A stretch of 46,405 nt of DNA from Bacteroidales bacterium (lineage in GTDB: Bacteria > Bacteroidota > Bacteroidia > Bacteroidales > P3): positions 1-46,405 of the forward strand of contig JAFXAD010000037.1 in NCBI GenBank assembly GCA_017522065.1, written 5' to 3'. The notes beneath the pieces were generated by a model that saw only the letters and a list, made by a program, of their open reading frames with translations, did no database searches and was not told the DNA's origin. Below, one piece after another: positions 2,071 through 14,315 of this stretch; within the stretch, counting starts at the first letter, position 1, and each line of letters opens with the position of its first letter. Made by a program: the position numbers and the translations under genes.

Positions 2071-2108
2071 TATCTTTGCGTTTAAACCAAAAGATTTGTG
2101 TAATTTTG
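2071..2108 (+). promoter_or_regulatory. Two Bacteroidota -7 elements for the queC leader
   Basis: TATCTTTG at 2071-2078 (with TTG at 2051-2053, 17 nt upstream) and TAATTTTG at 2101-2108 (with TTTG at 2075-2078, 22 nt upstream) match the TAnnTTTG consensus. The second would start a transcript near 2115, giving a leader of about 110 nt before ATG 2227 that contains the whole aptamer-like structure. Confidence 0.5.
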
Positions 2109-2129: not shown

Positions 2130-2219
2130 AGGGGTATTCTTGAACTTGCAAAATGCAGACCTCCACCATACTAACAAGGTGCAAGCCCATGCGGAGGGAA
2201 CCCCCTTTAACAAAACAAG
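2130..2219 (+). promoter_or_regulatory. preQ1 riboswitch-like leader with inserted three-way-junction domain
   Basis: The 3' part, AACCCCCTTTAACAAAACAA followed by G (2199-2219), closely parallels the 3' half of class I preQ1 aptamers: AAC, P1 3' strand CCCCT (2202-2206), A-rich loop TTAACAAAA (2207-2215) and P2 3' strand CAAG (2216-2219). The partners lie upstream: AGGGG (2130-2134) for P1, followed by a U, and CTTG (2139-2142) for P2, so an H-type pseudoknot can form. Instead of the usual few-nucleotide loop, the segment between P2 5' and P1 3' is about 58 nt and holds TGCA/TGCA (2147/2154) and CCTCC (2160-2164) with GGAGG (2193-2197), enclosing ACC/GGT and GCA/TGC stems. P2 ends 7 nt before ATG 2227, which suggests control of translation. 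The downstream genes make preQ1, the expected ligand. Confidence 0.65.
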
Positions 2220-2226
2220 AAAAAAT

Positions 2227-2901
2227 ATGCAAGACCCTAAAACAGCCGGGCGTAACTCGGCAATCATCTATTCCGGAGGACTCGATTCCACCACGCTCCT
2301 TTACGAGTATTCCAACCGCATTGCGCTGGCCATCACTTTCGACTACGGCAGCAACCATGCAGAACGCGAAATCGAATGTGCCCGATACCACTGCCAGAAA
2401 CTTGGCATAGAGCACCATGTCCTGAAACTCGACTTCTTCAAACAGTTCATGTCCTCTTCCCTCCTGTCAGGAGCCGAAGCCGTTCCAGAAGACGACTATG
2501 ACGAGGACAATATGCACTCCACCGTTGTGCCCTTCCGCAACGGCATCATGCTTGCCATCGCGTGCGGCATTGCCGAAGACCGCGGACTCGACAGCGTCCT
2601 TATCGCCAACCATGGCGGCGACCACGCCATCTACCCCGACTGCAGGCCCGATTTCATCAACTCAATGGACAAAGCCATGCGCGCCGGGACATACATACAC
2701 GTCGGTATTGAAGCTCCCTACACAAACATCTCGAAAGCCGACATCGTCGCACGTGGCGCCAAACTGGGCATCGACTATAGCCATACCTACTCCTGCTACA
2801 AGGGCACTGCGCTCCACTGCGGACGCTGCGCCACATGCCGCGAACGGCAAGAAGCATTCAGGGCAGCCCATGTTGACGACCCGACAAAATATCAATCCTA
2901 A
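2227..2901 (+). CDS. queC: 7-cyano-7-deazaguanine synthase QueC
   Basis: Converts 7-carboxy-7-deazaguanine to preQ0 with ATP and ammonia in the queuosine pathway. From ATG 2227 the protein has 224 residues, the normal family size. The PP-loop motif SGGLDS is at 16-21, and four zinc-binding cysteines lie at 190, 198, 201 and 204 (CYKGTALHC, then GRCATC). The frame is open further up to TTG 2140, but that start would place 29 non-conserved residues inside the riboswitch-like leader, so I reject it. It is the first gene of queC-queD-queE, with queD 15 nt downstream. Cytoplasmic enzyme. Confidence 0.95.
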   Translation: MQDPKTAGRNSAIIYSGGLDSTTLLYEYSNRIALAITFDYGSNHAEREIECARYHCQKLGIEHHVLKLDFFKQFMSSSLLSGAEAVPEDDYDEDNMHSTVVPFRNGIMLAIACGIAEDRGLDSVLIANHGGDHAIYPDCRPDFINSMDKAMRAGTYIHVGIEAPYTNISKADIVARGAKLGIDYSHTYSCYKGTALHCGRCATCRERQEAFRAAHVDDPTKYQS

Positions 2902-2916
2902 CTTTAATCCCCAACC

Positions 2917-3252
2917 ATGTATTACCTCAAGAAAACCATAGAAATAGCTGGTGCCCACAGACTTGAACTCGACTACCCAAGCAAATGCACCGCCCTTCAC
3001 GGTCACAACTGGACCATCACCATACACTGCAAATCCGAACAGCTCGACAGCAACGGTATGATTATCGATTTCTCGGAAATCAAACGACTGATCGCCGACC
3101 CTCTCGACCACAAAGTGCTGAACGATGTTCTGCCATGCAACCCGACCGCCGAGAACCTTGCTCGCTGGTGCCAGGAACGCATACCTTTCTGCTACCGCGT
3201 CGACGTGCAGGAAAGCAACGGGAACATGGCAAGCTACGAAGTTGAACAATGA
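2917..3252 (+). CDS. queD: 6-carboxytetrahydropterin synthase QueD
   Basis: Turns dihydroneopterin triphosphate into 6-carboxy-5,6,7,8-tetrahydropterin, the step before QueE. The protein has 111 residues. The zinc histidines are H14 (GAHRL), H28 and H30 (HGHNW); the catalytic Cys24 precedes them; D64-H65 (LDHKVLND) completes the relay, and E99 near the C-terminus is the likely substrate anchor. The short form without extra domains is usual for QueD. The last four bases overlap the start of queE (ATGA), a sign of translational coupling. Confidence 0.95.
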   Translation: MYYLKKTIEIAGAHRLELDYPSKCTALHGHNWTITIHCKSEQLDSNGMIIDFSEIKRLIADPLDHKVLNDVLPCNPTAENLARWCQERIPFCYRVDVQESNGNMASYEVEQ

Positions 3253-3830
3253 AAGTCAACGAGATATTCTACTCCTTACAGGGCGAAGGATTCCATACCG
3301 GACGCCCCGCCGTCTTCGTCCGCCTCAGCGGATGCAACCTGCGCTGCCCGTTCTGCGACACGAAGCACGACACGGGACTGGAGATGAGCGAGGAAGCAAT
3401 TGTTGCTGAGGTGATGAAATACCCGGCCACACATGTTGTTGTCACTGGAGGCGAACCGTCCTTGCAACTCACCGAATCGCTTGTCGACGCACTCCACCGC
3501 AACGGTCGCTACGTGGCCGTGGAGACAAATGGAACTCACAGCCTTCCTGCCAATATCGACTGGATCACCCTCTCGCCAAAAGACGGCTATTGCAGCAACG
3601 CTGCCGTGATATTGGATCACGCCGACGAGCTCAAGGCTGTCTATGACGGAGTTACGGAGCCGAAAACTTACGACAATATCAAAATATCACACGATTATTT
3701 CCTTCAGCCTTGCGACACGGGGGACCCAAAACGCAATCGTGACATAGTGCAACAGACTATTGAATACATCAAGGCCCATCCCCTGTGGAGGCTTTCGCTT
3801 CAGGTTCACAAATTAGTGAACATTCCATAG
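3249..3830 (+). CDS. queE: 7-carboxy-7-deazaguanine synthase QueE (radical SAM)
   Basis: Radical-SAM ring contraction of 6-carboxytetrahydropterin to 7-carboxy-7-deazaguanine. The cluster motif is C29-x3-C33-x2-C36 (CNLRCPFC), preceded by the family signature EIFYSLQGEG and followed by TGGEPS, the SAM-binding GGE motif. At 193 residues it is a compact QueE. The start ATG 3249 overlaps queD by 4 nt. Together queC, queD and queE cover GTP-derived pterin to preQ0. queF and tgt are not in the window. It closes the operon; 109 nt separate it from smpB with no obvious terminator. Confidence 0.95.
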   Translation: MKVNEIFYSLQGEGFHTGRPAVFVRLSGCNLRCPFCDTKHDTGLEMSEEAIVAEVMKYPATHVVVTGGEPSLQLTESLVDALHRNGRYVAVETNGTHSLPANIDWITLSPKDGYCSNAAVILDHADELKAVYDGVTEPKTYDNIKISHDYFLQPCDTGDPKRNRDIVQQTIEYIKAHPLWRLSLQVHKLVNIP

Positions 3831-3939: not shown

Positions 3940-4392
3940 ATGGAAGAAAAAAACATAATCGAAATAAAGAACAAAAAGGCCGAATACCAATACTTCCTCA
4001 TAGACTCATACAGTGCTGGGCTGGTGCTGACAGGAACGGAGATAAAAAGCATTCGCGAAGGCAGGGCAAACCTTGCCGATGCCTATTGCGTTTTCATCGG
4101 AAACGAACTGTACGTAAGACAGATGCATATAAGCGAATATCGATTTGGAAGCTGGCTTAACCACCCCGCCAAGCGCGACAGAAAACTCCTGCTCAACCGC
4201 AAAGAACTACGCAAACTGCAAAACAAAATCAAAGAACGCGGCTACACCATCATACCTACCCTTCTCTACGTCAATCCAAAAGGATACGCCAAAATCGACA
4301 TCGCTCTGGCGCGAGGCAAGAAATTCTTCGACAAACGCGAAAGCATCAAAGCAAAAGACACTCGCCGCGATATGGAACGGCAATTGTCGTAA
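3940..4392 (+). CDS. smpB: SsrA-binding protein SmpB
   Basis: Partner of tmRNA in rescue of stalled ribosomes. The 150-residue protein carries the family signatures: LVLTGTEIKSIREGRANL (about 28-45), DAYC, ELYVRQMHISEY and, near the end, IALARGKKFFDKRE with a basic C-terminal tail. The N-terminal extension MEEKNIIEIKNKKA is normal. A weak -7-like element GACTTTTG (3919-3926) precedes the ATG. No tmRNA gene was recognised in this window. Confidence 0.95.
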   Translation: MEEKNIIEIKNKKAEYQYFLIDSYSAGLVLTGTEIKSIREGRANLADAYCVFIGNELYVRQMHISEYRFGSWLNHPAKRDRKLLLNRKELRKLQNKIKERGYTIIPTLLYVNPKGYAKIDIALARGKKFFDKRESIKAKDTRRDMERQLS

Positions 4393-14142: not shown

Positions 14143-14143
14143 G

Positions 14144-14216
14144 TGACCACGCTGGGGCTCGAACCCAGGACCCCATCCTTAAAAGGGATGTGCTCTACCT
14201 GCTGAGCTACGTAGTC
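14144..14216 (-). tRNA. tRNA-Lys (UUU), copy 2
   Basis: 73 nt on the minus strand. Acceptor stem GACTACG pairs with CGTGGTC (one G-U), discriminator A, D arm GCTC-AGCAGGTA-GAGC, anticodon stem CATCC/GGATG around CTTTTAA giving anticodon UUU, and T arm CTGGG-TTCGAGC-CCCAG. CCA is not encoded. Identical in sequence to the copy 99 nt upstream. Confidence 0.97.
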
Positions 14217-14242
14217 AACAACATTATGTCCTTTTTCCTTTG

Positions 14243-14315
14243 TGACCACGCTGGGGCTCGAACCCAGGACCCCATCCTTAAAAGGGATGTGCTCTACCTG
14301 CTGAGCTACGTAGTC
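14243..14315 (-). tRNA. tRNA-Lys (UUU), copy 1
   Basis: Same 73-nt sequence and fold as the neighbouring copy, anticodon UUU, no encoded CCA. It is the promoter-proximal copy; only 26 nt separate the two genes, so they are probably one transcript cut by tRNA-processing enzymes. Confidence 0.97.

Follow-up and report, generated by a model that had tools for sequence, protein, structure and literature searches.

The window, by which we mean the whole stretch of DNA that was analysed (46,405 nt; contig JAFXAD010000037.1 of assembly GCA_017522065.1, Bacteroidales bacterium), carries a queuosine biosynthesis operon near its 5' end, with a structured leader directly upstream of the first gene (Table 1). 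NCBIfam and Pfam models assign the three genes as queC, queD and queE, which confirms the prediction that the element stands in front of queCDE. On the 5' side, an ORF at positions 2-916 of the forward strand, with an apparent Rhs-repeat-like core region, leads into a second, small ORF (913-1419). A pair of tRNA-Lys (TTT) genes, equal in Rfam score and separated by about 26 nt, occupies positions 14143-14315 of the reverse strand. At the Rfam gathering thresholds, the window yields two tRNAs and no riboswitch.

Table 1. Features of the queC leader and neighbouring genes in the window.
Feature	Position	Strand	Basis or remark
TAnnTTTG, -7-like promoter element	2101..2108	+	21 nt before P1
P1 5' strand AGGGG	2130-2134	+	Sequence; compensatory P1 variants in relatives
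L1 (TATT)	2135..2138	+	Begins with the conserved U that follows P1
P2 5' strand CTTG	2139-2142	+	Invariant, no covariation
L2 with structured insertion	2143-2200	+	58 nt (59 including the specificity C); 4-5 nt in compact relatives
Hairpin A	2146..2158 (2146-2150/2154-2158)	+	Fold of L2 alone; homologous hairpin covaries in relatives
Hairpin B, stem CCTCC/GGAGG	2160..2197 (2160-2164/2193-2197)	+	Stem covariation
Three-way-junction arms widening hairpin B	2165-2167/2178-2180, 2181-2183/2190-2192	+	Folding alone, this copy only
AAC ahead of P1 3' strand	2199-2201	+	Read from sequence
Expected ligand-specificity C	2201	+	Type II consensus AC before P1 3' strand (PMC11625349); placed by alignment
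P1 3' strand CCCCT	2202-2206	+	Sequence and alignment of relatives
L3, A-rich loop TTAACAAAA	2207-2215	+	Identical to Tte L3
P2 3' strand CAAG	2216-2219	+	7 nt upstream of the ATG at 2227
queC (7-cyano-7-deazaguanine synthase)	2227..2901	+	TIGR00364, 182.4 bits (cut-off 150.3); PF06508
queD	2917..3252	+	TIGR03367, 87.1 bits, just below the cut-off of 89.25; PF01242
queE	3249..3830	+	TIGR04508, E 1.1e-48, 165.9 bits, below the cut-off of 240; radical SAM PF04055
smpB	3940-4392	+	Downstream of queE; PF01668

The core of the leader reads as an H-type pseudoknot. The predicted AGGGG/CCCCT and CTTG/CAAG partners agree base by base with the DNA and follow one another in H-type order, the U after the first P1 strand and the AAC before the second are both present, and the length of 58 nt given for the loop holds for the stretch between the P2 5' strand and the specificity C. 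With respect to the type II consensus of class I preQ1 riboswitches, a U directly follows the P1 5' strand, A2200-C2201 directly precede the P1 3' strand (as defined in section 4 of PMC11625349), and an A-rich L3 leads into the P2 3' strand. The original prediction had likened L3 and CAAG to the aptamer of Thermoanaerobacter tengcongensis (Tte). The likeness holds letter for letter against the published Tte constructs, whose sequences in PMC10639078 contain AACCCCAGUUAACAAAACAAGG and CUGGGUCGCAGUAACCCCAGUUAACAAAACAAGG, and L3 plus the P2 3' strand of the window (TTAACAAAACAAG) is identical to Tte. The window departs from the short unstructured L2 of a simple H-type pseudoknot, its L2 being 58 nt long with two hairpins. 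Folding the whole leader gave a minimum energy no better than that of shuffled sequences (z -1.05; 32/200 shuffles as good), and the fold of L2 by itself is likewise ordinary (z -0.86; 37/200 shuffles fold as well), so the evidence presented here is comparative.

To collect relatives, a 22-nt pattern of the 3' half was searched with up to three mismatches in 190 genomes of the family. It matched 97 places in 91 genomes, 84 of which belong to the window's genus (120 genomes); with the reversed control pattern, 6 of the 190 were matched. Ninety-one of the 97 places were read; the six left out, all with three mismatches, lie in G003, G091, G095, G023, G165 and G168. After removal of identical contexts, 81 distinct copies parse as P1-U-CTTG-L2-AAC-P1-L3-CAAG with a parser that demanded T after P1 and CTTG. 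Together with L112, which was added separately as its L2 is too long for the parser, the genus yielded 82 distinct copies: 69 compact ones, which resemble the class I type II preQ1 aptamer and in which L2 is 4-5 nt (N-N-A-A-C), short and unstructured, and 13 in which L2 bears an arm. L106 is counted as compact and listed with an L2 of 3 nt owing to a parser slip. The A and C before the P1 3' strand recur in the parsed copies; both bases belonged to the search pattern (mismatches permitted). When the requirement for T and CTTG was dropped, 78 of 90 distinct 3' cores still had a perfect P1, followed by T, with CTTG nearby. Of the other 12, seven are chance-like matches, six from beyond the genus (L031, L116-L120) and one from within it (L039); the rest are a queF copy that has diverged (L043), a copy with a mismatch in P1 (L059), a locus that is truncated (L108), and L005 and L106, which are parsing cases. 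The central claim of the original prediction, that a preQ1-I-like pseudoknot holding a large structured insertion stands in front of queCDE, is supported by 69 compact and 13 arm-bearing copies of one layout, AGGGG-U..CTTG..AAC-CCCCT-A-rich-CAAG.

These copies are associated with queuosine genes. By script, the gene downstream of the compact copies is queC in 44 cases, a queuosine-precursor transporter in 20 and queF in 2, with 3 unassigned; all 13 arm-bearing copies precede queC (Fisher p 0.015, with no correction for relatedness and with the 3 unassigned copies left out). The families were checked on examples with NCBIfam and Pfam; NCBIfam confirmed QueC and, from the first 120 residues of each protein, QueF-II and the queuosine precursor transporter. 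One genome (G017) has an arm-bearing copy before queC and, on contig C133, a compact copy (L176) with P1 AGAGG/CCTCT before a short, early-stopping transporter-like N-terminus, which is followed by a queF-like frame.

Covariation in homologous queC leaders, one of the points on which the prediction was to stand or fall, is slight for P1, present in the inserted hairpins and absent from the invariant P2. P1 has compensatory variants in L033, L061, L072 and L097, and the divergent L169 leader, read by eye, likewise has an altered P1 (AGTG/CACT). In a compact alignment of 24 distinct sequences (A3), which holds three of these four variants, two-sided P1 changes occur in 3 sequences and at 2 of the 5 pairs, with no broken cells. 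Alignments A1 and A2 were excluded from all counts because MAFFT had misaligned P1 where the length of L1 differs. Sliding the compact structure by +2 or +3 gives higher covariation scores (0.058 and 0.074) than the structure itself (0.054), with far fewer paired cells and zero two-sided changes, and further pair types in the compact set are not above the control (500/500 shuffles as high). P1 is invariant within the 12 aligned arm-bearing copies. P2 is constant in all 24 sequences, which had been selected for CTTG, and covariation is thus uninformative on P2. In the majority of arm-bearing copies, nested folding favours a one-base slip of P1 (GGGGU/ACCCC); as a conserved mechanism this slip was rejected, since by eye the four P1 variants cannot slip.

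Both the hairpin and the gap-free three-way junction predicted for L2 appear when L2 is folded alone, and the two 3-bp junction arms of the window are without a homologue among the relatives. The L2 lengths of the 13 arm-bearing copies are 25, 25, 34, 37, 37, 38, 38, 39, 39, 40, 40, 58 (the window) and 135 nt. Eleven of them have both hairpins, with A ahead of B, and two (L012 and L075) have hairpin B alone, where CCTTC or CCTTT pairs with GAAGG. Among the arms of 34-40 nt, the L2 of L111, L089 and L102 folds with the lowest energy. Hairpin A has about 5 bp and a loop of a few nucleotides, and the stem of hairpin B is CCTCY/RGAGG in most copies, with one base between it and AAC. The two hairpins are contiguous in 10 of the two-hairpin copies and one base apart in the window. 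The arm is placed between the two N of the compact L2. This layout is seen in the minimum-energy fold of L2 alone in 13/13 copies (the centroid differs in L023, and hairpin A is mismatched in L096), with z-scores from -4.36 to -0.33. In an alignment of 12 copies, which omits L112 and, being model-fitted, is biased towards the structure used to build it, 95.9% of cells are paired versus 91.2% in shuffles (0/500 as high), the covariation score is 0.177 versus 0.103 (0/500) and at most 0.081 when the structure is slid, and four pairs, two in each hairpin, have two-sided changes versus 2.2 (8/500). Further pair types are not above shuffles (194/500 as high). The hairpin loops have no common sequence, and the tip of hairpin B ranges from a few nucleotides to about 100 nt (L112). 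The longest L2, that of L112 / L126 (135 nt), has hairpin A and a widened hairpin B in the same layout as the rest.

The Infernal comparison with the preQ1-I family (RF00522) turned out mixed: the match in the window (E up to 10) reaches 14.9 bits against a threshold of 39 and is misregistered, pairing the 3' strand of hairpin B with the 3' strand of P1, and the same family is the top Rfam family by E-value, always below threshold, on 13 of 14 compact loci. Among 20 relatives searched, RF00522 gave sub-threshold matches of 17.9-30.5 bits at 14 loci, namely 13 of the 14 compact loci and one of the six arm-bearing loci. Genus-wide, in a fast scan with stricter filters that scored 46 candidates per genome, none of the 120 genomes had a match above threshold and 2 had one below it (E up to 0.001); the B. 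subtilis control passes. As even the compact members escape the threshold, queuosine regulation is under-annotated in these Bacteroidales. No class II or class III preQ1 match was obtained at positions 1850-2400 of the window with all 4227 Rfam families at E up to 10.

In wider searches, model R2 matched 73 of the 190 family genomes, all of the window's genus and most with compact copies, and missed the 135-nt copy in G122. Over the class, its single match among 395 genomes was the window's own (12 candidates scored per genome), and in g112, a genus of another family, it matched 12 of 60 genomes, all with compact spans of 38-39 nt. Model R1 matched 4 of 393 genomes of the order (17 candidates scored per genome) and missed the window itself, so that its misses are not evidence; on scanning the fetched locus of its weak match in G314, no copy was confirmed. 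Exact matching of a pattern of 19 fixed bases retrieved 0 viral contigs. A DNA pattern for the arm, biased to the common P1 sequence and preceded by a QueC scan without matches, retrieved 11 named records, all uncultured Bacteroidales or Bacteroidetes MAGs. Four of their titles name rumen or reticulum, four carry RUG names (presumably rumen uncultured genomes) and three give no source. A literature search of limited scope turned up no description of hairpins in the L2 of a class I riboswitch.

The position of the element relative to transcription and translation signals was then considered over 80 copies, a set that leaves out L106 and L112. TAnnTTTG, which resembles the -7 motif of Bacteroidota promoters, occurs no more than 60 nt upstream in 56 of the 80 copies, where mononucleotide shuffling predicts 2.15, and 53 of these 56 elements are located 11-22 nt from P1. 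Thus, the aptamer probably starts the mRNA in most copies. In 78 of the 80 copies the first ATG comes 2-7 nt after CAAG, and the base next to CAAG is G in just 10 of the 80, so that classic burial of a Shine-Dalgarno sequence is mostly absent. A class I pseudoknot can still regulate with the Shine-Dalgarno sequence outside it, according to PMC11625349. No terminator-like hairpin was found at positions 1900-2400 of the window. The nearness of CAAG to the start codon (7 nt in the window), the promoter placement and the absence of a terminator together point to translational control by blocking of the start region, as predicted, with the direction of control suggested by analogy.

The history of the arm was examined with a tree of 61 QueC proteins, comprising 13 from arm-bearing loci, 37 from compact loci and 11 without a recognised riboswitch (L168 and L175, two of a set of ten loci, have no parsed QueC and stand outside it). 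The last label means no match to the core pattern. A divergent compact copy before queC in L169 (G032), read by eye, escaped that pattern; it has P1 AGTG/CACT, CTTG/CAAG, AAC and a shorter L3, and brings the group nearer to 10 than 11. The tree requires 7 changes of the arm label, which is clustered relative to shuffles (0/500 as low), and at least three changes are forced by well-supported branches. A single arm clade was rejected (p-AU 0.00018 with all 13 rows and 8e-07 with the 11 that have two hairpins), on a tree in which bootstrap support is unsettled and the QueC of the window and that of L125 form long branches. The arm has therefore been repeatedly gained, lost or exchanged. L015 (compact) and L121 (arm-bearing) are sister rows with support of 100/99, and their 34-nt difference in length is confined to L2. 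Repeated loss or leader exchange would be a simpler account of this pattern than a CCTC/GAGG hairpin invented several times over.

Taken together, we consider it very probable (roughly 0.85) that the queCDE mRNA starts with a preQ1 riboswitch of class I, type II-like, whose L2 contains an inserted arm of two hairpins. Since the core features are present, the simple H-type topology and the Rfam threshold are not reached, and P2 is invariant, we class it as a new structural variant of class I type II rather than an ordinary member, and its ligand binding is putative. The suggestion of a new subtype therefore holds for structure and fails for lineage, as the arm does not mark one QueC clade. Most likely, the element works as a preQ1-OFF switch of translation, with the arm peripheral to it. 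When plentiful, preQ1 would bind between P1 and P2 and, by analogy with Tte, would be expected to contact U2135, C2201 (the expected equivalent of Tte C15) and the final A of L3. Binding would lock CAAG (2216-2219) into the pseudoknot, immediately upstream of the start codon, and deny ribosomes access to queC; at low preQ1 the pseudoknot would loosen and the operon would be translated. The arm sits between two unconserved L2 bases and keeps all conserved pocket bases in place. Most likely it is stacked on the P1/P2 junction, where it would prefold or stabilise the junction, tune folding and set the sensitivity of the biosynthesis operon.

The chief rival to such a role is that the arm is neutral, L2 being solvent-facing and tolerant of any insertion. 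The sister QueC rows L015 and L121 with their compact and arm-bearing leaders, the forced label changes and the spread of the arm beyond one QueC clade all suggest that it may be so; we nevertheless regard neutrality as somewhat unlikely, because arm pairing is maintained by compensatory changes and the two-hairpin layout recurs in 11/13 copies with an A-B gap of zero or, in the window, one base. It is rather doubtful that the arm is a plug-in module of two hairpins, exchanged laterally, which sits at the P1/P2 junction, gates closure of the pseudoknot and tunes preQ1 control of queCDE specifically. Under the same doubtful reading, gating would proceed via stacking or via a partner that recognises the conserved CCTC/GAGG stem, and translation would be blocked without Shine-Dalgarno burial; if true, one of the smallest riboswitch aptamers would become a two-domain RNA. 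The arm might instead be a second sensing or protein-binding domain that passes two signals through one pseudoknot, and both the conserved sequence of the hairpin B stem (CCTC/GAGG in most) and the restriction of the arm to queC leaders would fit this. However, hairpin A is missing in 2/13 copies, the tip of hairpin B is highly variable in length, and beyond the AAC of the preQ1 core there are no conserved unpaired bases, which an aptamer needs. As the loops share no sequence, a second aptamer was rejected, and we hold the second-domain reading to be very improbable.

The remaining rivals concern the core. That preQ0 or another 7-deazaguanine is the main ligand would accord with preQ0 being the product of QueC and with the possibility, raised in PMC10622847, that class I aptamers do not discriminate preQ0 from preQ1; it is improbable given that the pocket-defining bases match type II as described in PMC11625349 and that copies also precede queF, named preQ1 synthase. 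Hairpin B might also act as a switch, with GGAGG pairing to the P1 3' strand (CCCCCTTT) in the ligand-free state. This pairing is used by the minimum-energy fold of the whole window leader and by the misregistered RF00522 match, and the probability of pairing between the P1 3' strand and L2 is 0.94 in L048 and 0.30 in L005, but it does not exceed 0.06 in the remaining 11 of the 13 copies (window, 0.04), on which ground a conserved switch was rejected and the reading is judged highly improbable. Finally, the original prediction had entertained a class III relative on account of the extra helical element inside the pseudoknot. The probability of membership in class III (or class II) is close to negligible: these are HLout folds with other cores (PMC11625349), no cmscan match to them was obtained at positions 1850-2400 (E up to 10), the core here is type II-like, and near-identical compact copies without the arm occur in the same genus.

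Among the closest known systems, Tte has the same H-type order, the GGGU 5' side, AAC followed by a C run, and an L3-P2 strand (UUAACAAAACAAG) identical to that of the window. Translation in Tte is controlled by the P2 strand (PMC11625349), as proposed here, whereas the window differs in its 58-nt L2 with two hairpins and in a P2 without a Shine-Dalgarno sequence. The class I type II riboswitch of Bacillus subtilis shares the type II consensus, Watson-Crick P2 and queCDEF linkage (PMC11625349); it acts via a terminator, of which the window has no counterpart at 1900-2400, and its L2, in the sequence given in PMC10639078, is short. Class II and class III are also preQ1-sensing pseudoknots with extra helices, but differ in core and ligand-binding mode (PMC11625349) and have no Rfam match in the window. 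The compact copies of the window's genus and g112 have the same core and, where read (G289 and G472: queC), the same genes, without the arm.

The preQ1-I aptamer is the textbook minimal riboswitch. The natural series of L2 from 4 nt to 135 nt on the same core in one genus offers a ready test of how a peripheral arm affects folding, affinity and control, and the set raises the question of how the pseudoknot represses translation when P2 mostly lacks a Shine-Dalgarno sequence. Within the same genus, queC also occurs without a recognised riboswitch (L003, L008, L010, L016, L027, L029, L167, L170, L171 and L172), in several cases with a start codon that overlaps or directly follows the stop codon of the upstream gene. 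A divergent, possibly degenerate copy precedes queF in L178 (G054), with P1 of about AGTG/CACT and without the CTTG/CAAG P2.
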